From: Myxococcales bacterium | GTDB taxonomy: Bacteria; Myxococcota_A; Polyangia; Haliangiales; Haliangiaceae | DNA length: 44,674 nt | Direction: 5' to 3' | Assembly (NCBI GenBank): GCA_016794525.1 | Contig: JAEUJY010000121.1 | Span: 1 to 44,674 of the forward strand | In this document: piece after piece, positions 9,340-44,674 of the stretch | Layout of the letters: every line of letters begins with the position of its first letter | Numbering within the stretch: position 1 is the first letter of the stretch | Program-made: the position numbers and the translations under genes | Notes under the pieces: model-generated | What the model was told of the DNA's origin: nothing | Database searches by the model: none | The model's input: the letters and a program-made list of their open reading frames with translations, nothing else

Positions 9340-9630
9340 TCAGGGCGCGCGCTTGACGACGCGCAGCCGCCACGGCGCCGCGTCGCCGGCGACCAGCTCG
9401 ACCTCCTGGCCCCAGTCGGCCAGGCTGCGCGGCAGGTTGCGGCGCGCCGGCGGGTGGTCGATCACGATCGTCAGCGCCGCGCCCAGCGGCAGCGGCTCGA
9501 GCGCCAGCCGCGCGCGCACGAACGTGTACGGGCACACCTCGCCGCGCAGATCGAGCTCGGCCGGATCGCCGTCACCAGACCCGGGGTGGGGCGGCGGCGA
9601 TGGCGTCGAGGACTCGATCGTAGTCGACAT
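9340..9630 (-). CDS. TusA-like sulfur carrier protein
   Basis: 96 residues. The core from residue 24 on reads ELDLRGEVCPYTFVRARLAL. This is the TusA/YeeD/SirA fold, with the sulfur-carrying cysteine in a Cys-Pro motif (CPYT here, CPxP in classical TusA). The C-terminal VVKRAP strand completes the small alpha/beta fold. It is the last gene of the FHA-to-TusA operon. Its first 59 bases overlap the end of the DsrE-like gene in another frame, and the Pro/Ser-rich residues 3-22 are encoded there. In known systems TusA hands persulfide to DsrE-type proteins, which are its immediate neighbours here. Confidence 0.8.
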   Translation of the reverse strand: MSTTIESSTPSPPPHPGSGDGDPAELDLRGEVCPYTFVRARLALEPLPLGAALTIVIDHPPARRNLPRSLADWGQEVELVAGDAAPWRLRVVKRAP

Positions 9631-9991
9631 CGGCGGGCGCTCCGAGCTGTAGCACCCGATCGCCCGGCGCGACAGCGCCGGCCGCGCGCCCGGCGCGCAC
9701 CAGGTGCACGACCGGCGGGCGCGGGGCCAGCGACGCCGCCGGGGCCGGCGCGCCGTCGTACCAGTGCTCGACGACGTCGGCCTCGACGCGATCGGGATCG
9801 CCGTCGACCGCGTGGCCGAACAGCGCCAGCGTGGCCCGGGCCCGCGCCGCGCCGGCGCCGCCGTCAGCGCTGCCCGGCCGCACCGCGACGATCACCCGCG
9901 CGCCGCGCAGGCTGACGCCGACCGCGGCCCGCCACGCCTCGGCGACGGTCGCCGGATCGCGGTGATCGATCACGATCGCGATCGTCGTCAC
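9572..9991 (-). CDS. DsrE-like small protein (2)
   Basis: 139 residues. It starts with a beta strand, TIAIVIDHRDP, then a helix with AEAWRAAVGVSLRGARVIVAV, the order seen in DsrE/DsrF-like sulfur relay proteins. No conserved cysteine is present, so if the fold is right this copy cannot itself carry persulfide. The last third (LVRAGRAAGAVAPGDRVLQLG) looks like a second strand-loop-strand unit. The GTG start at 9991 overlaps the upstream stop by 4 bases. The assignment rests on pattern and on context with another DsrE-like gene and a TusA-like gene. Confidence 0.5.
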   Translation of the reverse strand: MTTIAIVIDHRDPATVAEAWRAAVGVSLRGARVIVAVRPGSADGGAGAARARATLALFGHAVDGDPDRVEADVVEHWYDGAPAPAASLAPRPPVVHLVRAGRAAGAVAPGDRVLQLGAPADVDYDRVLDAIAAAPPRVW

Positions 9992-10293
9992 GCGAACGCC
10001 ACCACCCGATCGGCCCACGCGCACAGCGCGGCGTGATCGTCCTGGCTGCCGGCGGCCACCCCCAGCGCGGCGAGATCGACGCCGGCGGCGTCGGCGCTGG
10101 TGGCGCACGCGATGACCTCGACGCCGTCGTCGGCGAGCGCCGCCACCGCCGCGCGATCGCCGGCGAGCGCGCGCACGCCGGCGTGCATCGCGAACACCCG
10201 CACCGCCAGCCGGCGGGCCACCGCGGCGCGCGCCAGCCCCGCCGCCAGCGGCAGATCGTCGGCGGTGGCCAGCACCAGCCCCAGCCTCGTCAC
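9988..10293 (-). CDS. DsrE-like small protein (1)
   Basis: 101 residues. The N-terminus RLGLVLATADDLPLAAGLARAAVARRLAVRVFAMHAGV has the strand-helix-strand plan of the DsrE/DsrF family. There follows GVEVIACATSADAAGVDL, where the cysteine sits at the usual position of the DsrE active cysteine, and a terminal CAWADRVVAFA. It is likely a sulfur relay subunit that may pair with the cysteine-less copy encoded next, as DsrE and DsrF do. The start is GTG at 10293 within a GTGA overlap with the JAMM gene. A longer frame upstream is ignored because it is a shadow of that gene. Confidence 0.6.
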   Translation of the reverse strand: MTRLGLVLATADDLPLAAGLARAAVARRLAVRVFAMHAGVRALAGDRAAVAALADDGVEVIACATSADAAGVDLAALGVAAGSQDDHAALCAWADRVVAFA

Positions 10294-10706
10294 GCCGCGC
10301 TCCAGCGATCGGCCGCGTCGCGGCGCAGCCGGGCCACCGCCCGCGGCGCCGGGGCGCCCGCCGGCCACGCGAACAGCCCGGCGGCGGTCGCGCGGCGATC
10401 GCGCGTGGCGATGACGAGCATCGGCCACGGCCAGCGCGGCGCGCCGGTCGGCGCCCACGCGGCGACGTCGGCGGGCGACAGCGCGACCCGGCCGTCAGGG
10501 TGGCTGTGGAACAGCGCCAGCGGCGGGCGGCCCGCGCGCGCCGCGGCCACCATGGCCAGCAGCGCCGCGTCGGTCCACGCGCCGGCGTCGGTCAGCGCCG
10601 CGGTGGCGACCGCCGGCGTGGCGGCGCTGATCCAGCCCGCGACCTCGGCGGCCTGGCCGTCGACCGCGCGCACGATCGCCGGCCACGCGATCGCCGCGGC
10701 GATCAC
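10290..10706 (-). CDS. JAMM/MPN-type metalloprotease
   Basis: 138 residues. The sequence LFHSHPDGRVALSPADVAAW is the JAMM zinc motif (H-x-H-P-x-G then S-x2-D), as in bacterial Mec and in eukaryotic Rpn11. A glutamate that could complete the site lies in the N-terminal third (QAAEVAGW). Bacterial JAMM proteins usually cut ubiquitin-like carriers (ThiS, MoaD, CysO) from what they are joined to, next to an E1-like enzyme, and two E1-like genes follow here. No beta-grasp carrier ending in Gly-Gly is encoded in the operon. The GTG start at 10706 overlaps the upstream stop by 4 bases. Confidence 0.8.
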   Translation of the reverse strand: MIAAAIAWPAIVRAVDGQAAEVAGWISAATPAVATAALTDAGAWTDAALLAMVAAARAGRPPLALFHSHPDGRVALSPADVAAWAPTGAPRWPWPMLVIATRDRRATAAGLFAWPAGAPAPRAVARLRRDAADRWSAA

Positions 10707-11131
10707 GGCGCCTCGGCGGTGGCGCAGGCGTGCAGCCAGCGCGCCGCGGCCTCGCCGCCGCGCGCCAGCGCCTCGGCCAGCGGCAGGTCGGGGCGATCGT
10801 CGGCGATCCGCAGCGCCGCCTCGTCCGGCGCGGCCGCGCGCACCGCCACCTCGGGGTTGCGGGCCGCGACCGCGGCCGCGAGCCCCGCGGCGATCGCGCC
10901 GGGCGCCGCGGCGTCGAACGGGAACGCCAGCGGGGCCGCCCCGGCGCCGCCGCGCAGCGCCAGCGCGCCGACGCCCGCCGCCGCCAGGTACACCGCCGCG
11001 ATCTGACCGGCGCGCCCGTCGACGTCGACCACCGCCGTCGCCGCGCCCAGCCGATCCTGGCCGCGGCCGCCGACGTCGGGCAGGAGCACGTGGTGCGCGT
11101 AACGCACCTGGCGGTCGCGCGACCAGGTCAC
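10703..11131 (-). CDS. E1-like protein lacking the nucleotide-binding motifs
   Basis: 142 residues. The first 60 match the N-terminus of ThiF/MoeB enzymes: VRYAHHVLLPDVGGRGQDRLGAA, then VYLAAAGVGALAL. Where an E1 has GAGGLG, this protein reads DVDGRAG. Everything past that helix (Asn-Leu-x-Arg, the lysine, the cysteines) is missing or replaced by Ala-rich sequence. It cannot bind ATP as an E1 does. The neighbouring E1 begins exactly at its GAGGLG strand and lacks this N-terminal region. One reading is a heterodimer of an active and an inactive E1 half; another is a decayed copy. The GTG start at 11131 overlaps the E1 stop by 4 bases. Confidence 0.65.
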   Translation of the reverse strand: MTWSRDRQVRYAHHVLLPDVGGRGQDRLGAATAVVDVDGRAGQIAAVYLAAAGVGALALRGGAGAAPLAFPFDAAAPGAIAAGLAAAVAARNPEVAVRAAAPDEAALRIADDRPDLPLAEALARGGEAAARWLHACATAEAP

Positions 11132-11763
11132 GCGGCCTCGCGACACTCGCAGCCGGCGCGCGGCGCGATCGCCAGGGTCCGGGCGGCGCCGCCGCGCCGC
11201 AGATCGTCGAGCACCCAGATCGTCGCGCCGGCCGGCGCGCGATCGTCGAGCCGGGCCAGCACCGCCGCCGCCGCGACCCCGCCGACCCAGCCGACCACCG
11301 GCCCGAGCACGCCGGCCTCGCCGCAGCTCGGCGCCTCGGCGGGCGGCTCCTCGAACAGGCACGCGTAGCAGGCGTCGTCGGGGCCGCCGGCGAAGACGTT
11401 GCCGCCGTAGCGCAGCGCCGCGGCGATCACCGCCGGCACGCCGCGCGCGCGGGCCCAGGCCGCGACCGCGAACTTGGTCGGCGGATCGTCGCTGCCGTCG
11501 ACGATCGCCGCGACCGGCCCGAGGTCGGCCGGCAGCGCCGGGAAGCGCGCCACCACCGCGCGGGCGCCGGCGCCGGCCCGCGCCGCCAGCACCTCGGCCT
11601 TGGGCCGGCCCAGGTCGGCCATCGTGAAGTGCACCTGGCGGTGCAGGTTCGACAGCTCGACGACGTCGTCGTCGACCACGATCACCGGCCGCCCCGCCGC
11701 CGCCACCGCCAGGGCGATCGGGCCGCCGAGCCCGCCGGCTCCGACGACCACGACCGCGGCCAT
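11128..11763 (-). CDS. ThiF/MoeB/HesA-family E1 adenylyltransferase
   Basis: 211 residues. It has VVVVGAGGLGGPIALAVA at residue 4, acidic DDDVVELSNLHRQVHF (ATP/Mg binding), GRPKAEVL (lysine), VDGSDD, and a zinc pair: CYACL in the middle and CEC at the end. The segment SCGEAGVLGPVVGWVGG carries the likely thioester or persulfide cysteine. These enzymes adenylate the C-terminal glycine of ubiquitin-like sulfur carriers. It is about 40 residues shorter than MoeB because it lacks the N-terminal Arg-bearing helix, which the next gene supplies. The ATG at 11763 overlaps the upstream stop (TGATG). Confidence 0.88.
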   Translation of the reverse strand: MAAVVVVGAGGLGGPIALAVAAAGRPVIVVDDDVVELSNLHRQVHFTMADLGRPKAEVLAARAGAGARAVVARFPALPADLGPVAAIVDGSDDPPTKFAVAAWARARGVPAVIAAALRYGGNVFAGGPDDACYACLFEEPPAEAPSCGEAGVLGPVVGWVGGVAAAAVLARLDDRAPAGATIWVLDDLRRGGAARTLAIAPRAGCECREAA

Positions 11764-12194
11764 CAGTTGCCCACGTCCGTCCGGCCGCACACCTTGCAGA
11801 CGCCGGCGGCGTCGAGCAGGCCGGTGCACGCGCCGTCCGGGCACAGCCGCCGATCGTCGCTGTCGTCGTCGGCGGGCGCGCCCACCACCGGCGCCGGCGG
11901 CACGACCCGCACCACCCGCGGTACCGCGCGCCGCCCGCACACCTTGCAGGCGCCGTCGGCGCCGATCACGCCGGTGCAGGCGCCGTCCGGGCACAGCTGG
12001 CGATCGTCGGCGTCGACGTCGGGCGGCCCCAGATCGCCGGTGGCCGCCGGCTCGGCGGTCACCATGCCGCGCCGCCGCTCGTCGCCCCAGAACGGCGCCG
12101 CGCGCCCGCACACCTTGCAGGTGCCGTCACCCCCGATCACGCCGGTGCAGGCGCCGTCGGGACAGAGGGTGCGTTCGGCCCAGTCCTCGGTCAC
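11763..12194 (-). CDS. Triple zinc-knuckle repeat protein
   Basis: 143 residues, built from three near-identical cysteine modules: LCPDGACTGVIGxDGxCKVCGR at about residues 10-31, 67-88 and 116-137. Each has C-x4-C-x10-C-x2-C spacing, which fits a small treble-clef or zinc-ribbon site. The linkers are acidic or Pro/Val-rich and differ from each other, so the modules are the selected part. I do not recognise a named family. Such modules could bind zinc and a protein partner, or carry sulfur. It sits between the FHA gene and the E1 gene, with overlaps of 4 bases (GTG start at 12194) and TGATG. The start was chosen from the GTGA overlap. Confidence 0.75.
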   Translation of the reverse strand: MTEDWAERTLCPDGACTGVIGGDGTCKVCGRAAPFWGDERRRGMVTAEPAATGDLGPPDVDADDRQLCPDGACTGVIGADGACKVCGRRAVPRVVRVVPPAPVVGAPADDDSDDRRLCPDGACTGLLDAAGVCKVCGRTDVGN

Positions 12195-12760
12195 GACCGG
12201 CTACCCGGGCCGCCGTCGCGCAGGACCTCGAACAGCTGGGCGGCGGTGAAGAACGTCAGCTCGAAGTCGCCGATCCGGACCGCGGCGCCGGTCGTCACCT
12301 CGCGCTCGCGCCGGGGCTCGAGCGCGGCGCCCTCGAGCGCGCTGCCGTTGCGCGAGCCGGCGTCGGCCATCAGCCACTTGTCGGCGCGCTGGCGGAAGTA
12401 CGCGTGGAAGCGCGACACGGTCACGTCGCGCAGCACGACGTCGTTGTTGGGCGTGCGGCCGATCGTGATCATGTCGGCGAACGACGCGCCCGGCTTCTTG
12501 ATCAGCGGGTACACCTCGATCGCCCGCGGGCCCCGACGTTGCCCCAGCACCGGGGCCACCATCGTCTCGACCTCGTCGTCGCCGCCGCGCCCCGAGTCGG
12601 TGTCGCCGTCGAGGTCGCCGGCGCGCCGCCGCACCAGCGCGGCGGGGGCCGCCGAGGCCAGGAACGCGCTCCGCCCCAGGAGGGCGAGCTGCAGGTAGCG
12701 CTCCGACTGATCCACGGTCAAAGAAGTAGCACGACCGCGGTGAGCGCGGCCTGCTCCCAT
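12191..12760 (-). CDS. FHA-domain protein
   Basis: About 189 residues. A C-terminal forkhead-associated domain at about residues 90-180 shows the phosphothreonine-binding signature: ITIGRTPNNDVVLRDVTVSRFHAYFR, then DAGSRNGSALEG. FHA domains read phosphothreonine made by Hanks-type kinases, which are abundant in myxobacteria. The first 70 residues are linker-like. It is the first gene of the sulfur/E1/JAMM operon, so a kinase signal may be tied to that system. The start is uncertain: ATG 12760 is used, GTG 12715 and TTG 12721 are alternatives, and none has a clear ribosome binding site. Confidence 0.8.
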   Translation of the reverse strand: MGAGRAHRGRATSLTVDQSERYLQLALLGRSAFLASAAPAALVRRRAGDLDGDTDSGRGGDDEVETMVAPVLGQRRGPRAIEVYPLIKKPGASFADMITIGRTPNNDVVLRDVTVSRFHAYFRQRADKWLMADAGSRNGSALEGAALEPRREREVTTGAAVRIGDFELTFFTAAQLFEVLRDGGPGSRS

Positions 12761-36594: not shown

Positions 36595-37797
36595 GTGCTC
36601 GCCGAGCTCCTCCGCCGCTACCCGCTCGACGCCCCGGCGATCCACGCCGCGGTGGCGCCGTGGACGATCACCCACATCGGCGCCAGCGCGGTCCGGTCGG
36701 CGGTGGACGTGGTGCTCGACGCCGCCGGCCGCCGGCTGGTGGTCGCGATCGAGGCACGCGCGTCAGGCGGTGCCTACCTGGTTGCCACCCGCGACCTGCA
36801 GCTCTCCTACTACGCCGAGGCCGCCACCGACCACGCCGCCGCCGCCGCGGTGGTGCGCGCGCTGGCCGCGGCGCTGGCTGGGTTCGAGACCGGCGACGCG
36901 CCGCGGCGGTTGCCGATCGCGCCGATCGCCGGCCACCGCTTCGTCGAGCTGCGGGTCAACCGCGCGTGCAACGAGGCCTGCCGGTTCTGCAACACGCCCG
37001 CCGACTCGCCGACGATCCTCGACGAGCCCGACCGCGTGCTGGCCGCGATCGCCGCCGCCGCCGCCGGAGGCTGCCGCGACCTGCTCCTGACCGGCCGCGA
37101 GACCACGCTCGCGCCGGAGCTGCCCACCTACGTCGCCGCCGCCCGCGCCGCCGGTATCGCCAACGTCCGCGTCCAGACCAACGCGACGACCCTCGGCCAC
37201 GGCCCGATGCTGGCCCGGCTCCTGGCCGCCGGCGTCACCGAGTTCGAGGTGTCGCTGCACACGCTCGCCCCCGAAACGTTCGCCGCGCTGATCGGCCCGG
37301 CCGGCCTCTTGGCCCACGCCGAGGCCGGCCTCGACGCGCTCAGCGCCGCCGCCGCGCCGGTCACGATCGTCACGGTGATCACCGCGGCCAACCTCGACGA
37401 GGTGCCGGCGCTGGTCGCGACGATCGGGCGGCGCTGGCCGAGCGTGCGCCGGCTGGTGCTGTCGCCGGTGGCGCCGGTCGGCGACGGCGCGGGCGCGTTG
37501 GACCTGCTGGTGCCTTACGGTCGGCTGGGCGCGGTGGTCGCCGCGGCGCTGACCGCCGCCGCCGCCGCCGGCATCGAGGCCAGCGTGCCGGCCCGCTGCG
37601 GGCTGCCGCCGTGCGTGCTGCCGGCGGCGCTGCGCGATCGCCACGACGCGGTGCGCGCCGATCGCGGCGGGCCGATCGAGCCGGGCAAGCGCAAGCCGCC
37701 CGGCTGCGGCGGCTGCGCGCTCGACGCCCGCTGCGCCGGCCCGTGGATCGGCTACCTCGATCGCTTCGGCGCCGACGACCTCGCGCCGATCGCCTGA
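36595..37797 (+). CDS. Radical SAM protein with C-terminal Cys cluster (1)
   Basis: 400 residues. A 110-residue N-terminal domain of unknown type precedes the radical SAM core. The [4Fe-4S] motif is CNEACRFC (Cys 125, 129, 132), followed by [10 protein letters not shown] in place of the common GGEP, then the barrel strands ([27 protein letters not shown]). The end has CGLPPC and [14 protein letters not shown], a SPASM-like auxiliary cluster with C-x2-C-x5-C-x-G spacing. The same spacing is found in the two radical SAM proteins at 37802 and 40170. The substrate is unknown. The GTG start at 36595 is the first in frame; TACCGT at 36576-36581 may be its -10. Confidence 0.82.
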
Positions 37798-37801
37798 CCG
37801 A

Positions 37802-38986
37802 TCACGCGGAGCCGGAATCGGAGCCGGAATCGGAGCCGGAGCCGTCGATACGCTCCTGCGCGACGCCCCCCGCCTCGGCGAGGCGCGCCTCGTGGCGGCG
37901 CTTGGCCTGGTAGCGCCGCGCCCCGACCTCGGTCAGCCGACCGACCGGGATCACCGCGTCGTCGCCATCCGCCGCATCGCTCGCCGCGCCGCGCCGCGCC
38001 GCGAACGCCGCCTTCCACGCCGCGAGGTCGCGCAGCGGGTAGGCCGGATCGTCGGGGTCCTCGATGATCGCGCGGACGATCGGATCGGGATCGACGAACT
38101 GCGGCGCCAACTCGGCCGGATCGTAGGCGGCGCCGCGATCGAACAGCCCGCCGCAGATCTCGCGCAGCGTGCACGCCGCGCAGCCGTCGGCGTAGATGTG
38201 GCCCCAGTCGGTCTGGCGGACGGTCTGCTTGGCGTCGAGGAAGTGGACGATGCGCTCCTCGCCCTTGACGATCTTGCGGGTCTCGGTCGAGGCCCAGCCG
38301 AACGAGCCGAGGTAGCACAGCGGCACCTTCTCGACGCGGAACGTGCGGCCGCTCTTGTGCAGGTGGCGCAGCGCGCGCTCGAGCGACAGCTCGAAGTCGG
38401 CGAGCCGCGGCGTGAACTGCGCCTGGTTGACCTCGGCCCGGCCCATCGACGGATCGAGGTTGTTCCAGACGAAGTGCCGGACCTGCGGGTGGTGGCGGGT
38501 CAGGTAGCGGACGTTGACGTCGAGGTGGTCGGCGTTGTGGCGGTTGATGACGCAGTTGACGTTGACCTCGAGGCCGGCGGCGTGGGCGCTGTCGAGCGCC
38601 GCCAGCGCCGTGGCCAGCGTGCCGTCGTGGCCGCGCAGCCGGGCCTCGACCGCGGGCCGCACCGAGTAGATCGAGACGTGGGCCAGCCGCACGCCCGCCG
38701 CCGCCAGCGCGCGGGCGTACGCGGGGTCGGCCAGCCGCGTGCCGTTGGTGATGATCCGGACGTGCAGGCCGGCGTCGGTCGCGTAGCGCGCGATCGCCGG
38801 CAGGTCGGGGTGCAGCGTCGGCTCGCCGCCGGTCAGGATCACGCCGAAGTAGCCGCGCCGCACGAAGTCGTCGACCAGCGGCTGCATCGACGCCAGGTCG
38901 TGCACGTACGGCGTCGCGGGGTTCGAGCAGAACCCGCAGAAGTGGTTGCAGTGGCGGACCACCTGGATGTAGCCGAGGTTGGCCAC
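37802..38986 (-). CDS. Radical SAM protein with C-terminal Cys cluster (2)
   Basis: 394 residues. The core begins at once: [22 protein letters not shown] (Cys 13, 17, 20), then [47 protein letters not shown] and FVWNNLDPS. The auxiliary site is [14 protein letters not shown]. The C-terminus ends in a Ser-Asp-Gly run encoded by a GGAGCC-type hexamer array. It follows a MopE-like lipoprotein gene in the same direction, with 76 nt between them that hold a dispersed hairpin repeat, so the lipoprotein is a possible substrate or partner. The GTG start at 38986 has no clear ribosome site. Confidence 0.85.
37806..37843 (+). repeat. GGAGCC-type hexamer array inside a gene end
   Basis: About six hexamers (GGAGCC, GGAATC) in the same orientation as the arrays at 26924 and 33180. 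Read on the minus strand it encodes [12 protein letters not shown] at the end of radical SAM protein 2. It lies at a convergent junction. Confidence 0.75.
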
Positions 38987-39062: not shown

Positions 39063-40085
39063 TCACATCGCGTCGTAGATGCCGTTGGACAGCTCGACGT
39101 TGAACTGCGCGCAGGTGTCGGTGCCGCCGGTGGTGCGCTCGACGACCACGTAGTAGTCGGAGGCGTCGTCGCCGCACGGCGAGACGTTGTCGACGGGTGT
39201 GCCGGTCCAGCACGGACACTGGCCGGCCAGGTTGCCGCCGATCATCTGCCGCATGTCGGTGTACCAGGAGATCTCGGTGAACTGCCCGGGCGGCGTGATC
39301 GGCGTGTTGCAGTCGCCGCGGAACGCGCGGATGCGGAACTGATCGGTGGGGTTGCCGACGAACTTCGCGTTGACGTGGTAGTTGTCGCAGGCGGTGTCGG
39401 GGGCGTCGACGCCGCGGAACCGGTACCAGATCTGGCGGCCGTTGGGGATGTTGCCCATCACGTTCATCGCCTGGCCGACGTCGCTGATGTTGCCGACGTC
39501 GATCGCGGTCGCGCACGACGTGCCCTGGCCCAGCATCGGCGCCGCCGCGCACTCGCAGCCGGGCACCGTCGGATCGAGATCGAAGTTGCCGTTGGGGCAG
39601 ACGCAGCTGCCCATGACGCAGACGTTGCCGGCCTGGGCGCCCGAGCACAGCACCGCCGGGTCGCCGTCGTCGACGGTCATCGAGCAGTCGTCGTCGACGG
39701 CGTTGCACACCTCGGTGCCGCCGGGGTGGACGTCGGGGTTCTGCTCGTCGCAGTCGGTGCTGGCCGGGAAGGTGTCGCCGTCGATGTCGCGATCGCTGGG
39801 GATGCAGACGCCGTTGCGGCACACCGTGCCCGGGCTGCACATCGGCAGCGGGTCGGGGCCGGGGGTGCCGGCGTCGACCGGGCACTCCGGGAACGGCACG
39901 CACTGGCCCTCCTTGCAGTACTGCAGGCCGGGACAGGTGATGCCGGCGCACGGGTCGACCATGCCGTCGCCGCCGCCGTCGCCGGCGACCGGACCGTCGG
40001 TGCCGTCGCCACTCTTGCTCGACGCGCACGCGCCGATGAGGACGATCGCCAGCGTGAACGCGTACGCGGTCCCCCGGGTGGACAT
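39063..40085 (-). CDS. MopE-like Cys-rich lipoprotein
   Basis: 340 residues. A signal peptide with LIGAC puts the lipid Cys near residue 20; a Gly/Asp linker follows. Then come EGF-like and MopE-like cysteine motifs: CAGITCPGLQYCKEGQCVPFPEC, CSPGTVCRNGVCIPSDRDIDGDTFP, TDCDEQNPDVHPGGTEVCNAVDDDCS and CVMGSCVCPNG. The last 160 residues form a beta-rich domain (IWYRFRGVDAPDTACDNYHVNAKFVGNPTDQFRIRAF, YYVVVERTTGG) like bacterial pre-peptidase C-type or jelly-roll domains. It is surface-exposed by prediction. Its promoter (TACCCT, 7 nt before the ATG) is back to back with that of the radical SAM/methyltransferase gene. Confidence 0.8.
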   Translation of the reverse strand: MSTRGTAYAFTLAIVLIGACASSKSGDGTDGPVAGDGGGDGMVDPCAGITCPGLQYCKEGQCVPFPECPVDAGTPGPDPLPMCSPGTVCRNGVCIPSDRDIDGDTFPASTDCDEQNPDVHPGGTEVCNAVDDDCSMTVDDGDPAVLCSGAQAGNVCVMGSCVCPNGNFDLDPTVPGCECAAAPMLGQGTSCATAIDVGNISDVGQAMNVMGNIPNGRQIWYRFRGVDAPDTACDNYHVNAKFVGNPTDQFRIRAFRGDCNTPITPPGQFTEISWYTDMRQMIGGNLAGQCPCWTGTPVDNVSPCGDDASDYYVVVERTTGGTDTCAQFNVELSNGIYDAM

Positions 40086-40137: not shown

Positions 40138-40173
40138 GTGGTGACGCCGCTCGCTCCGACGGGGGCGCCGTGA
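40138..40173 (+). CDS. Possible 11-residue leader peptide
   Basis: GTG GTG ACG ... CCG TGA encodes (M)VTPLAPTGAP. It starts 6 nt after a -10-like hexamer, the spacing of leaderless genes here, and its TGA overlaps the GTG start of the radical SAM/methyltransferase gene (GTGA). It could load ribosomes on a message that has no ribosome site. It contains Pro codons but no run of one amino acid, so classical attenuation is not evident. It may be only a coupling device, or chance. Confidence 0.4.
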   Translation: MVTPLAPTGAP

Positions 40174-41963
40174 AGGCGCTGATCAAGGTCGGCTACGGCT
40201 GCAACGATCACTGCACCTTCTGCCACACCCTCGACGTCCGCCACGTCGACGCCCCGGCCGACGAGATCGACCGCAAGATCGACCGGGCCAAGGCGCTGGG
40301 CCACACGATGGTGGTGCTGTCGGGCGGGGAGCCGACGATCCGCCCCGAGCTGGTGCGCTGGGCCCGCCGGGTCGCGGCCCGCGACATGGACTTCGGGCTG
40401 GTCACCAACGGCCGGGTGCTGTCGTACCCGGCGGTGGTGGCCGAGCTGCTGGCGCTGCGGCTGCGCTACGTCTACCTGTCGCTGCACGGCGGCAGCCGGA
40501 CGATCCACAACCGCCTGGTCCGCGCCGACGCCTTCGCCGAGACTCACGGCGCGCTGGCCCAGCTCACCGGTCGGGGCCTGGACCTCAAGGTCAACTGCGT
40601 CGTGACGCTGCAGAACGTCGACCACCTGCGCGGCGTCGTCGACGCGGTGCGGCCGTTCCCCGACGTGACGCTGAAGTTCTCGATGGTCGAGCCCAAGGGC
40701 GGCGGCGCGGCGCTGTTCGCGGCGCTGTCGCCGCGGGTGAGCGACGCGGCCGCGCGGGTGGTCGACGCGATCGAGTACGGCCTGGCCACCGCCGGCGCCG
40801 CCGGCCCGCGCTTCGCCCACGGCGGCTTCCCGCTGTGCCTGATGCCCGGCCACGAGCACCGCTACGCCGACCTCAAGACCGATCGCTTCGCGACGATGAT
40901 CGAGGTCGGCGAGCCCGACTACTTCCCGGTCGACGACGACAACAAGCTGCAGCCCGACGAGGCGTGCGCCGGCTGCGCGCTGGCCGGCCCCTGCCCGGGC
41001 CTGTACCGCGGCTACCACGCCGCGCTCGGCGCCAGCGAGCTGCGGCCGCGCGCCGGCGGGCCGCGCAGCAACTCGTTCGACTACACCCTCGAGGCCACCG
41101 TGCGGCCGTCGCCCGACGGCGGCTGCCCGGTGCTGCGGGTCGGCGTGACGCCGTGGGATCGCGGCCGCCACCTGTTCGTCGCCCACGGCGATCGGATCGC
41201 GCGGTTCCGCGCCGACAGCCGCGACTTCTCGGACCGCGACCTCGCGGCGATCAAGCACGACCGCGGGCAGCTCTACCTCGACCGCAGCGCCAAGGACGCC
41301 CCCGACGACTTCGCCCGCGATCTGATCAAGCTGGCGCGCAGCCCGCGCTGCGCGCCGTGCCCCGAGTACGCGCGCTGCACCGGCCTCTACGAGCCGGTGC
41401 CCGACGCCGGCTTCGATCGCGACGACGCGATCGTCCGCGGCTGGCTGGCGGCGCTGGCCGGCGACGTGATCGACGTCGGCTGCGGCGCCGACGATCGCTA
41501 CGACGCGATCCTGGCGCCGGCGGCGGCGGCCGGCCGGCTGCGCTACGTCGGCGTCGAGCCCGAGCCGGCGCGGGCCGCGGCGCGGGCCGCGCGCTGCGGC
41601 TGGGCCGAGGTGCGGGCCCAGGCGCTCGACGACGTCGCCGAGCGCGGCGCCTACGATCACGTGCTGGCGCTGCGCAGCTGGAACCACTTCCCCGACGGCG
41701 ACGGCGCGCTGGCCCGGCTGGTCGCGCTGGCCCGGCCCGGCGGGACGATCATCGTCGTCGACAACGTCGCGTTCGGGCTGGCGCGCACGCCGGCCCAGAC
41801 CGCGCGGGCCCGGGCCGGCGCCGCCGGCTTCGAGCACCACCGCGACGACGACTCCCACGCGGTCGTGCGGCGCGCCGCCGCCGCCGGCCTCGCGGTGCTC
41901 GATCACCACCCGGTCGGCCCGGCGACGTCGAACCAGTGGGCGGTCCGGCTGCGCGCGCCTTGA
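40170..41963 (+). CDS. Radical SAM protein fused to a SAM-dependent methyltransferase (3)
   Basis: 597 residues. Radical SAM core: LIKVGYGCNDHCTFCHTLD (Cys 11, 15, 18), VVLSGGEPTIRPEL, VTNGRVLSYP, YLSLHGGSRTIHN and LKVNCVVTLQNVDHL. It is followed by a Cys pair in GGFPLCLMPG and two auxiliary-type sites: CAGCALAGPCPGLY near 270 and CAPCPEYARCTGLY near 395. From about residue 425 a class I methyltransferase follows: GDVIDVGCGADDRYD (SAM site), YVGVEPEP, YDHVLALRSWNHFPDGD and GGTIIVVDN. One chain thus pairs radical chemistry with methyl transfer. It ends 31 nt before the hxsD-like gene. Substrate unknown; a peptide is plausible from context. Confidence 0.85.
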   Translation: MKALIKVGYGCNDHCTFCHTLDVRHVDAPADEIDRKIDRAKALGHTMVVLSGGEPTIRPELVRWARRVAARDMDFGLVTNGRVLSYPAVVAELLALRLRYVYLSLHGGSRTIHNRLVRADAFAETHGALAQLTGRGLDLKVNCVVTLQNVDHLRGVVDAVRPFPDVTLKFSMVEPKGGGAALFAALSPRVSDAAARVVDAIEYGLATAGAAGPRFAHGGFPLCLMPGHEHRYADLKTDRFATMIEVGEPDYFPVDDDNKLQPDEACAGCALAGPCPGLYRGYHAALGASELRPRAGGPRSNSFDYTLEATVRPSPDGGCPVLRVGVTPWDRGRHLFVAHGDRIARFRADSRDFSDRDLAAIKHDRGQLYLDRSAKDAPDDFARDLIKLARSPRCAPCPEYARCTGLYEPVPDAGFDRDDAIVRGWLAALAGDVIDVGCGADDRYDAILAPAAAAGRLRYVGVEPEPARAAARAARCGWAEVRAQALDDVAERGAYDHVLALRSWNHFPDGDGALARLVALARPGGTIIVVDNVAFGLARTPAQTARARAGAAGFEHHRDDDSHAVVRRAAAAGLAVLDHHPVGPATSNQWAVRLRAP

Positions 41964-41994: not shown

Positions 41995-42504
41995 ATGGCC
42001 AGTTTGCCGTCGATCCCCGGAGAGCTGGCGAGCGCCGACGTCGCCAGCGGCGTCGTGCGCCTGACCGTGCGCGAGGAGCTGTACCCGCTCGACGCGGTGT
42101 TCGCCGCGGCGTTCACGTTCATCAAGGATTGCTGGGTGGTGGTCGATCGCGCCGACGCCGCGCACTGGGCGATCGCGCTGACGCCCAAGACCGCCGGGGC
42201 CAACGCCGAGCTGCTCGAGCAGTGGGTCGGCGGCTTCGCCAACGAGCTCCTGGCCTGCGCCTACCGCCACCGCCTGGCGAAGGATCACCGCGCCACCGTC
42301 GAGGCGGTCACCGCCGCGGCGCTGGCCGGCGCGCTGGGCCCGCCGTCGCTCGACGAGCTCGAGGACTTCGACTTCTCCAACGAGGCGTTCGAGGATCCGC
42401 TCGGCATCGCGATGTCGTGGGAGGACAAGTACGGCAAGAAGGCCAAGGCCGGCGACGCCGCGCCGGCCGGCAGCACCGACGACGACGACGGCGGTGCGCC
42501 GTGA
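41995..42504 (+). CDS. HxsD-like protein of a His-Xaa-Ser modification system (1)
   Basis: 169 residues. The first 110 fit the HxsD family: RLTVREELYPLDAVFAAAFTFIKDCWVVVDRADAAHWAIALTPK, then a helix WVGGFANELLACAYRHRLAKDHRATVEAVTAAAL. HxsD proteins are small, of unknown role, and occur only with the HxsB/HxsC radical SAM pair and the HxsA repeat peptide, so a peptide-binding or scaffold role is inferred. A 55-residue acidic and Lys-rich tail (DELEDFDFSNEAFEDPLG, ending in an Asp run) is extra to the usual length of about 100. It is the first gene of the operon and overlaps the next by 4 bases. Confidence 0.72.
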   Translation: MASLPSIPGELASADVASGVVRLTVREELYPLDAVFAAAFTFIKDCWVVVDRADAAHWAIALTPKTAGANAELLEQWVGGFANELLACAYRHRLAKDHRATVEAVTAAALAGALGPPSLDELEDFDFSNEAFEDPLGIAMSWEDKYGKKAKAGDAAPAGSTDDDDGGAP

Positions 42505-42725
42505 TCGAGCTGCGCCTGCACAAGGACGTCTACGTCGGCGCCGCGGTCGACGCCGCGATGAAGCAGTTCGGGCGCTACGCGCGCCTGACCGCCCGCGAGG
42601 AGGCCAGCCACTGGGTGGTGCAGATCGAGGCGGCGACGCCGGCGCGCGCGCGCACGGTGGCCGGCGAGCTGGGCAACGCGGCGCTCGGCGGCAGCGCCAA
42701 GGCCCGGCCGGCGGTGCAGCCGTGA
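42501..42725 (+). CDS. Second, minimal HxsD-like protein (2)
   Basis: 74 residues. The layout repeats the first HxsD-like protein without its tail: IELRLHKDVYVGAAVDAAMKQFGRYARLTAREEASHWVVQIEAAT, then a helix ARTVAGELGNAALGG. The Y-x5-A-x2-A pattern and the HWVVQI strand align with the YPLDAVFAA and HWAIAL of its neighbour. It is probably a paralogue that forms a heteromer with it. The GTG start at 42501 and the stop are each in a 4-base overlap (GTGA), so it is co-translated with both neighbours. Confidence 0.6.
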   Translation: MIELRLHKDVYVGAAVDAAMKQFGRYARLTAREEASHWVVQIEAATPARARTVAGELGNAALGGSAKARPAVQP

Positions 42726-44254
42726 GGCTGGCGCCGCTCGGCGAGCTGGCGACCCGCCACGCCGTCGCGTTCCGGTTCCGCGCGATCGGCGACCGGGTGC
42801 TGGTCACCAACCCCGAGGGCCGGTGGCTGGTGCTCACCGCCGACGAGTTCGACGCCTACACCCGCGATCGGGTGCCGGCCGACAGCCCGCTGCACGCGCG
42901 GCTGGCCGGCGCCAACTTCCTCGCCGATCACTACGACCTGCGCGCCGCGGTCGAGATGGTGCGGGCGCGCAAGCGCTTCGTCCACCACGGCCCCAACCTG
43001 CACATGGCGGTGGTGACGCTGCGCTGCAACGAGACCTGCGTCTACTGCCACGCGTCGCGCGCCGACATGGACGCGGTCCACACCGACATGACCCGCGAGG
43101 TCGCGGAGCAGACCGTCGACTTCATCTTCAAGACCACCAGCCCGTTCGTGACGATCGAGTTCCAGGGCGGCGAGCCGCTGGTCAACTTCCCGGTGGTCCA
43201 GCACCTGATCGAGTACGCGCTCGACAAGAACCGCGCCGCGAAGAAGCAGCTCGAGTTCACGATGGTCTCGAACCTGGCGATGATGGACGACGCCAAGCTC
43301 GAGTACCTGCTGAGCAAGAAGGTGCAGCTGTGCACCAGCATCGACGGGCCGGCGCCGCTGCACGACAAGCAGCGGGTGCTGCCGATGGCGTCGAGCTACG
43401 ACCACGCCTCGCGGTGGATCAAGCGCATCAACGACGCCTACGCCGCCGCCGGCCTCGATCCGACGCTGTACCACGTCGAGGCGCTGCTCACGACGACCCG
43501 GGCCACGCTGCCGCAGTGGAAGGAGGTCGTCGACACCTACGTCGCGCTCGGCTGCCGCGCGCTGTTCCTGCGGCCGATCGACCCGTTCGGCTTCGCGGCG
43601 AAGACCGGCCCCAAGCTCGAGTACCCGCGCCGCGAGTACCTCGAGTTCTACCGGCGCGCGGTCGACTACATGATCGAGCTGCACGGCCGCGGCACCGAGA
43701 TCCTCGAGCGCTACGCCGCGATCTTCCTGACCAAGATCCTGGGCGGGGTCGACCCCAACTTCCTCGACGTGCGCTGGCCGGCGGGCGCCGGCCTGGGCGC
43801 GCTGGCCTACGGCTACGACGGCCGGATCTTCACCTGCGACGAGGGCCGCATGCTCGACGCGATGGGCGACGACGCCTTCGCGATCGGCCACGTCGCGACG
43901 TCGAAGTACCGCGACGTCGTCGGCCACGAGACCGTGCGCGCGGTGACGATCGCGTCGAACCTCGACGCGACGCCCGACTGTGTCGACTGCACCTACCAGC
44001 CGTACTGCGGCGTGCCGCCCAGCCACAGCTACAAGACCCAGGGCACGATCTTCGGCCGCATGCGCGAGAGCGCGCTGTGCGAGGTCTACAAGGGCATCCA
44101 GGACTACCTGTTCGAGAAGCTGGCGACCGGCGACGCCGCGACCCGGGCCACGCTCGAGCGCTGGACCACCCACCGCCCGCGCGAGCACTTCCTGCAGGAC
44201 GGCGCGACGGGATCGCCGGGGCCGGGCACGAAACCGGTGGCGCCGCGGCCGTGA
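42722..44254 (+). CDS. hxsB: His-Xaa-Ser system radical SAM maturase HxsB
   Basis: 510 residues. A 90-residue lead with RVLVTNPEGRWLVLTADEFDAYT is followed by the radical SAM core LHMAVVTLRCNETCVYCHASR (Cys 102, 106, 109). Then come VTIEFQGGEPLVNF, LCTSIDGPAPLHDKQR, ALFLRPIDPFGFAAKT, FYRRAVDYMIELHGRG and DGRIFTCDEGRMLDAMGDDAFAIGHV. The Cys-rich end is CVDCTYQPYCGVPP and SALCEVYKGIQDYL (SPASM-type clusters). This order and these motifs are those of HxsB, the larger maturase of the His-Xaa-Ser system. Its target should be the repeat protein encoded 32 nt downstream. The usual partner hxsC is not in the window and may follow it. Confidence 0.9.
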   Translation: MRLAPLGELATRHAVAFRFRAIGDRVLVTNPEGRWLVLTADEFDAYTRDRVPADSPLHARLAGANFLADHYDLRAAVEMVRARKRFVHHGPNLHMAVVTLRCNETCVYCHASRADMDAVHTDMTREVAEQTVDFIFKTTSPFVTIEFQGGEPLVNFPVVQHLIEYALDKNRAAKKQLEFTMVSNLAMMDDAKLEYLLSKKVQLCTSIDGPAPLHDKQRVLPMASSYDHASRWIKRINDAYAAAGLDPTLYHVEALLTTTRATLPQWKEVVDTYVALGCRALFLRPIDPFGFAAKTGPKLEYPRREYLEFYRRAVDYMIELHGRGTEILERYAAIFLTKILGGVDPNFLDVRWPAGAGLGALAYGYDGRIFTCDEGRMLDAMGDDAFAIGHVATSKYRDVVGHETVRAVTIASNLDATPDCVDCTYQPYCGVPPSHSYKTQGTIFGRMRESALCEVYKGIQDYLFEKLATGDAATRATLERWTTHRPREHFLQDGATGSPGPGTKPVAPRP

Positions 44255-44286
44255 TCGGCGGTAACCTCGGCACCACCTCGTAGACC

Positions 44287-44674
44287 ATGCCAGGCAACGA
44301 CGACAACCTGTTCGATCCCAAGCGGCCGTCGGCGCAGCCGGTCGGCGGCGACGCCCCGGTGATCGACGACGACGCCGCGATCCCGGTGTTCAAGGGCAAG
44401 CCGGCCGACGGCCTGCTGCCGGTCGAGCGCGAGGTCTCCGACAAGGCGCGCGACGACGCCGACGCGGCCCCGCCGGTCAGCGGCGACGATCCGATCCGCG
44501 CCCAGCACGCCAGCCACGGCAGCCACGGCTCGCACGGCAGCCACGGCTCGCACGGCAGCCACGGCTCGCACGGCAGCCACGGCTCGCACGGCAGCCACGG
44601 CTCGCACGGCAGCCACGGCTCGCACGGCAGCCACGGCTCGCACGGCAGCAGGAAGCCAGCCGCGCGCGCTCCGC
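44287..44674 (+). CDS. His-Xaa-Ser repeat precursor (HxsA-like), cut by the window end
   Basis: At least 129 residues, open at the right edge. Residues 1-73 are an acidic leader-like part (PVIDDDAAIPVFKGKPADGLLPVEREVSDKARDD). Residues 74-121 are one His-Ala-Ser and 15 His-Gly-Ser units in a row, then RKPAARAP. At DNA level the array is an 18-base repeat with Ser codons alternating AGC and TCG. Placement directly after hxsB makes it the likely substrate: a leader followed by a modifiable repeat core. A metal-binding His-rich protein is the alternative if the context is ignored. ATG 44287 is the only start; no clear ribosome site. Confidence 0.75.
   Translation, partial: MPGNDDNLFDPKRPSAQPVGGDAPVIDDDAAIPVFKGKPADGLLPVEREVSDKARDDADAAPPVSGDDPIRAQHASHGSHGSHGSHGSHGSHGSHGSHGSHGSHGSHGSHGSHGSHGSHGSRKPAARAP

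Follow-up and report, generated by a model that had tools for sequence, protein, structure and literature searches.

A Myxococcota variant of the Hxs radical SAM system with a His-Gly-Ser repeat precursor

The HxsABCD systems (TIGR03976/TIGR03977/TIGR03978) are the closest described relatives of the locus considered here. This locus lies at the right end of a 44,674-bp contig (C21, the whole of which is called the window) in the 9.8-Mb genome of a myxobacterium, and consists of hxsD, a second hxsD-like gene (hxsD2), hxsB and a precursor gene, hxsA4, with repeated His-Gly-Ser (HGS) units. It shares with HxsABCD an HxsB above the curated cut-off, an HxsD homolog and a precursor with His-Xaa-Ser repeats, but differs by the lack of an HxsC above cut-off, whose place is taken by the HxsC-like radical S-adenosylmethionine (SAM) enzyme R37, by the additional HxsD2 and by a pure C-terminal HGS repeat ending in Trp. 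In a classical system of the same phylum (G099, L166), a single HxsD and an HxsC accompany a precursor in which HRSHSSHRSHSSHYS lies inside a longer protein. Two other curated families, HxsA4 (NF038313) and HxsC4 (NF038332), are both represented above their cut-offs, HxsC4 on another contig, C127. Neither an experimentally shown product of an Hxs system nor a paper on HxsA4 or HxsC4 was found in the searchable open literature.

More distant systems share single traits with the locus. Triceptides (FxsB/MscB, HaaB, YhhB) have an aromatic-x-residue motif of three and a SPASM-type maturase, and both His and Ser are precedented ring partners (PMC11002830); HxsB, however, belongs to another radical SAM family, its precursor carries about 16 units instead of one to few, and its ring product is one that we infer. 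TvgB, the enzyme of poly-cyclopropylglycine, is a single radical SAM enzyme that modifies a repeated core, but its motif is TVGG and its chemistry concerns Val. The sactipeptide maturase CteB (5wgg) is the closest solved structure, aligned over both its leader-binding and catalytic parts. CteB makes Cys thioethers, whereas HxsA4 carries no more than a single Cys, in unit 1, and the copy in the source genome lacks even that; repeated CteB-like thioether chemistry is ruled out, since the repeated units are devoid of Cys.

The locus is real and its Hxs-type identity is confirmed. Its repeat type already belongs to a curated family and is common in the phylum, and the locus is a Myxococcota variant of the Hxs system. 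The radical enzymes of the locus very probably modify every His-Gly-Ser unit. The fuller explanation, held with moderate confidence, is that HxsB modifies the HGS units in turn, likely with formation of His-Ser rings. A strict (HGS)n-Trp rule, the R37 partner and a multi-enzyme locus set this variant above an ordinary new family member.

The Hxs core and its repeat precursor

The core genes occupy the end of the contig:
41995..42504, + strand: hxsD, 169 amino acids (aa); TIGR03976 42.9 bits, slightly under the cut-off of 50; family in 35 loci
42501..42725, + strand: HxsD-like protein (HxsD2), 74 aa; NF038315 60.6 bits, cut-off 41; family in 34 loci
42722..44254, + strand: hxsB, radical SAM/SPASM-type maturase, 510 aa, with a predicted N-terminal leader-binding domain resembling a RiPP (ribosomally synthesized and post-translationally modified peptide) recognition element (RRE); TIGR03978 527.8 bits, cut-off 370
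42764..42973, + strand: RRE-like domain of HxsB, residues about 15-84, from predicted secondary structure and the CteB match
44287..44674, + strand: hxsA4 precursor gene, cut by the contig end; NF038313 81.2 bits, cut-off 55, with further support from the C127 end and relatives; acidic leader 44287-44505, array HAS-(HGS)15 44506-44649, last 25 bases an error-prone contig end

The gene hxsD2 overlaps hxsD and hxsB by 4 bases each, and hxsA4, encoding the His-Xaa-Ser repeat protein, begins 33 bp past hxsB. An earlier note, made from the letters alone, had proposed an Hxs-type system in a probable myxobacterium, with two HxsD-like proteins ahead of HxsB and a precursor made of an acidic leader and 16 consecutive His-Xaa-Ser units. 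The profile searches that it advised bear out HxsB, HxsD2 and HxsA4, and leave HxsD just short of its threshold; the precursor indeed has a leader of 73 residues followed by one HAS and 15 HGS units. The nearest named HxsB (86% identity) comes from a Kofleriaceae metagenome-assembled genome (MAG), and the 46 relatives of HxsB in named genomes are nearly all from Myxococcota or from MAGs labelled Deltaproteobacteria. The repeat gene is conserved beside hxsB in relatives, a check that the same note had named; the array adjoins hxsB in the culturable Polyangium, Plesiocystis and Minicystis.

The contig breaks within the array because its 18-bp units are 100% identical in DNA, and for this reason the number of units in the source genome may differ from 16, the number found in the closest unbroken relative. 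Read in reverse, the end of C127 carries the same HGS array and its tail, which reads HGS-Trp-stop, and the final 25 bases of the window match the reversed C127 sequence after the array at 20 of 25 positions. A congeneric relative (G025, contig C72, behind locus L055) has the region unbroken, in the order C21 end, array, C127 reversed, a synteny that supports the join of C21 and C127. Together, the C127 end and this unbroken region indicate that the apparent continuation HGS-RKPAARAP is a contig-end artefact and that the gene ends in HGS-Trp-stop, as in all 58 complete relatives sampled. Extension to the right, also advised earlier, therefore supplies the end of the precursor from C127 and discards the tail of the window itself.

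Across the phylum, 60 HxsA4 regions and the named loci yielded 77 distinct arrays, with the general form H[C/A/G]S-(HGS)n-[HGQ]-Trp-stop. Arrays open with HCS in 71 cases, with HAS in four and with HGS in two. Internal units are HGS in 1,163 of 1,193 cases (otherwise 22 HAS, four HSS and four changed in other ways), and the last unit, counted on arrays ending in Trp-stop, is HGS in 58 and HGQ in 19. Arrays contain a median of 16 units (range 7 to 50). Trp-stop closes the array in 58 of the 58 loci uncut by a contig end, within a 60-locus sample not selected for this feature. His at position 1 and Ser at position 3 are nearly invariant, while position 2 is occupied by small residues (G, A, S or C, with one Arg in a decayed array). 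Of the codon changes between adjacent units, 1,524 are synonymous and 50 nonsynonymous (rate ratio 0.010), and AGY and TCN serine codons are mixed within 50 of the 77 arrays. The repeat is under purifying selection and its Trp end is conserved. Codons that vary under a constant protein pattern argue that it is the protein repeat, and not the DNA sequence, that selection maintains.

A Cys-Trp end-to-end link was considered as a universal feature and is unlikely, unit 1 being without Cys in six of the 77 arrays and in the source genome. L131, L127 and L128 (G081, G154 and G053) have arrays three times as long as usual, with about 50 units.

The AlphaFold2 model of HxsB (predicted local distance difference test, pLDDT, 83.6) starts with three strands followed by three helices, which is the topology of RREs. 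It aligns with CteB over 407 residues (Z 35.4, root-mean-square deviation (rmsd) 3.4, model residues 15-471), the match starting at residue 1 of the CteB chain, with anSMEcpe over 356 residues (Z 33.6, rmsd 2.9), and with ChlB (Z 32.8) and TigE (Z 27.7). The CxxxCxxC cysteines (C102/C106/C109), as well as C204, C420, C423, C429 and C453, are invariant in 39 of 39 HxsB sequences. The predicted structure thus contains an RRE-like part and a radical SAM part. RRE-like topology, alignment with CteB from residue 15 and a precursor divided into leader and core mark the system as a RiPP system, with leader binding itself a prediction.

Partners of HxsB across Myxococcota

In a sample of 190 Myxococcota genomes (at least 80% complete), HxsB is present in 66 and HxsA4 in 61, all of the latter among the former (Fisher 2e-44), and HxsA4 is spread over 40 of 136 genera. 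HGS arrays are the norm there, contrary to the earlier impression that the array and a myxobacterial operon are unusual. Classical HxsC was found in a single genome, one without HxsA4; it was also looked for in the source genome, where no protein exceeds the cut-off and R37 reaches only 94 bits against 267.9. R37 occurs in 63 genomes, 61 of which are among the 66 with HxsB (Fisher 4e-41). Seventeen genomes carry R37 at 1.1-1.8 kb upstream of hxsB, both genes sharing a strand; hxsD and hxsD2 separate the two in the loci read. The recurring order in distant genomes is R4-R37-(c4)-hxsD-hxsD2-hxsB-(hxsA4), where R4, a radical SAM protein, precedes R37 in several of these loci, and c4, a small and often Tat-type protein, stands between R37 and hxsD in some. 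In the classical system of the phylum (G099), the enzyme at the HxsC position is, among the genes compared, closest to R37 (78 bits, 28%). Judged by sequence and gene order, R37 is the best candidate for the HxsC counterpart of the system, and is named here as a previously unrecognised core enzyme. R37 accompanies HxsB almost universally, as do HxsD and HxsD2.

Other enzymes are lineage-specific additions, namely HxsC4, R6 (a tandem radical SAM protein of 760 aa, similar in its first half to B12-dependent radical SAM families) and a radical SAM-methyltransferase fusion (rSAM-MT). They occur in 26, 39 and 10 of the 190 genomes, respectively. HxsC4 lies on C127 (113996-115006; 601 bits, cut-off 500), 4.8 kb beyond the repeat. 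The earlier note had expected an HxsC to the right of the window; HxsC4 is found there, but the better counterpart, R37, stands on the left and classical HxsC is absent. HxsC4 is not a universal partner and is rejected as an essential one, being present in only 25 of the 61 HxsA4 genomes.

The C-terminal tail of HxsD, FEDPLGIAMSWEEKYGKK, is nearly invariant in the alignment and of low predicted order, and is possibly a docking segment for HxsB. The AlphaFold2 model of HxsD (pLDDT 80) gave common alpha/beta matches only (best Z 7.6), with pterin dehydratase, secretion-chaperone and RNA-polymerase K/L folds close together, and no function is therefore drawn from it.

The radical SAM genes to the left of the core in the window are:
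36595..37797, + strand: R36, another HxsC-like radical SAM protein of the cluster; PF04055; same-place ortholog in two relatives
37802..38986, - strand: R37, HxsC-like radical SAM enzyme; HxsC is its best NCBIfam match
40170..41963, + strand: rSAM-MT, radical SAM enzyme fused to a methyltransferase domain; PF04055, PF13489/PF08242/PF08241

rSAM-MT ends 31 bp upstream of hxsD, and orthologs with 52-61% identity lie near hxsB in other loci. Orthologs of R36, R37, rSAM-MT, HxsC4, R9, R8, R6, R4 and others recur beside hxs genes. In the unbroken region of G025, about 13 radical SAM-domain genes are present in 40 kb (assigned by orthology or position relative to the proteins tested), together with a radical SAM homolog of half length that lacks the cluster-binding motif. 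The locus is thus not 'compact', the word first used for it, but belongs to a radical-enzyme cluster of unusual size, and such a density makes it a promising place in which to seek new radical chemistry.

The additional HxsC-like radical SAM genes near hxsA4 (except R37 and perhaps R4) could constitute a separate natural-product cluster merely adjoining the Hxs core. This is a serious possibility, although not the favoured one: only R37, HxsB and HxsA4 are near-universal in the survey, and the genes of locus L026, on contig C124 in the source genome, adjoin the hxs locus in one relative, G025. Against such independence, R6, HxsC4 and rSAM-MT are exclusive to genomes with HxsB (39/39, 26/26 and 10/10) and stand beside hxs genes in several families. 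A separate cluster would concern the extra genes only and is compatible with the modification of HGS units by HxsB.

Proposed chemistry of the repeated unit

In the proposed mechanism, HxsA4 (a leader, then one H[C/A/G]S and about 15 HGS units, then a C-terminal Trp), the presumed substrate, would be bound through its leader by the RRE-like domain of HxsB. This SPASM-type radical SAM enzyme would process the HGS units one by one, taking the Cβ hydrogen of Ser and coupling Cβ to the imidazole of the His two residues earlier. The product would be a row of three-residue rings, with a change of -2.016 Da per unit, and R37, as HxsC counterpart, and HxsD/HxsD2 would act as partners. The proposal has precedents: C2(His)-Cβ three-residue rings are made by the radical SAM enzymes HaaB and YhhB and a C4(Phe)-Cβ(Ser) ring by MscB (PMC11002830), and TvgB modifies its TVGG repeats unit after unit (PMC9062424). 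As His and Ser are separated in each unit of HxsA4 by a single small residue, a repeated His-Ser ring is the most economical reading, and by analogy the His-to-Ser-Cβ ring is the most likely chemistry. One modification repeated along one chain, supposed from the start, is also the best reading here, although we infer it.

Several observations weigh against this reading. HxsB is structurally about as near to the anaerobic sulfatase-maturating enzyme (anSME), which converts Ser or Cys to formylglycine, as to CteB. The fold cannot decide between a ring and Ser oxidation, which keeps confidence in the ring moderate. HxsB is distinct from the known cyclophane formers (37.8 bits on the FxsB model, cut-off 370; 46.4 on the YhhB model, cut-off 445). 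The Fisher values do not account for shared ancestry, and hxsA4 and hxsB are on separate contigs in some genomes. Some hxsB loci, including that of Nannocystis, have no hxsA4 within 10 kb; in these genomes the precursor gene may lie elsewhere.

It is tempting, but speculative and rather unlikely, to extend the proposal to a phylum-wide myxobacterial set of distinct radical SAM enzymes (R4, R37 and HxsB, with HxsC4, the B12-type tandem and the methyltransferase fusion in some lineages). Acting on an (HGS)n-Trp chain whose length is fixed, they would produce a polymer of strained His-Ser rings templated by the ribosome, which would be both a type of material and a function without earlier description.

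An alternative chemistry, less probable than the ring yet deserving attention, is that HxsB acts on single residues along the array without crosslinks, for example by Ser oxidation, as in anaerobic sulfatase maturases, or by epimerisation, with Ser (or His) as target. The near tie between anSMEcpe and CteB in structural matching, a score of 69.5 bits for HxsB on the anSME model and the near-invariance of Ser at position 3 all fit this view, which leaves unexplained the equally invariant His at i-2 and the small middle residue. Ser oxidation and ring formation both amount to -2 Da, so that mass alone cannot tell them apart. The substrate is the simplest possible, with one repeated unit, a defined Trp end and a phylum-wide list of partners, and for these reasons a ladder of mass shifts in a single spectrum could reveal both the chemistry of HxsB and the part that its partners play.

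Improbable is the idea that the HGS array serves mostly as a His polymer for metal binding, tuned or capped by modification (His N-methylation, Trp modification), with HxsB active at few sites. His recurs at every third residue, the invariant C-terminal Trp could be a lone modification site, some loci include a radical SAM-methyltransferase fusion, and copper is bound by a lanthipeptide crosslinked from His to butyrine (PMC10206099). However, the methyltransferase is found in just 10 of the 66 HxsB genomes, and the conserved neighbours include no conspicuous family of transporters or metal-uptake proteins. Metal binding and crosslinking are not mutually exclusive. Finally, the identical 18-bp units and the contig break might suggest that the array is a simple-sequence repeat of the DNA, or a spurious frame, next to what is left of an Hxs locus. 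This view has next to no credit and is refuted by the codon test, with synonymous drift in 77 distinct arrays around a constant protein, and countered by the curated family, the conserved leader and the Trp-stop.

Other genes around the locus

A second radical SAM cluster, L026 (C124:65000-84500), comprises an HExxH-type peptide beta-hydroxylase, a PA0069-like radical SAM protein and a giant protein (>1,343 aa) that combines radical SAM domains with a Gfo/Idh/MocA oxidoreductase domain. The HExxH-type family is found in ten loci, and the C124 member tested matches the aKG-HExxH peptide beta-hydroxylase model (89.3 bits, cut-off 40).

Predicted lipoproteins are encoded beside radical SAM genes in the window (39063-40085, - strand) and in L025 (2907-4349, + strand). 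A MopE-type putative metal-binding motif (PF11617) is present in the first, which has orthologs in five loci; the second has, by eye, similar Cys-rich motifs. Proteins with a PPCC-x-x-F motif also neighbour radical SAM genes (L025 15920-17622, on C127, and L026 11551-12633), and two of them match DUF483 at threshold. On C127, a conserved radical SAM homolog of 168-172 aa without the CxxxCxxC half (L025 18260-18778, + strand) is convergent with hxsA4; its full-length version of 320-350 aa is retained in other families. Ser/Asp/Gly-rich low-complexity C-terminal tails are seen on radical SAM proteins of the cluster (window 37802-37840 and L025 10982-11060). Farther to the left in the window (9340-12715, - strand), small genes that encode, among others, a ThiF-like adenylyltransferase and a JAB-type (HSHP) protein resemble, by eye, a sulfur-carrier or ubiquitin-like set.

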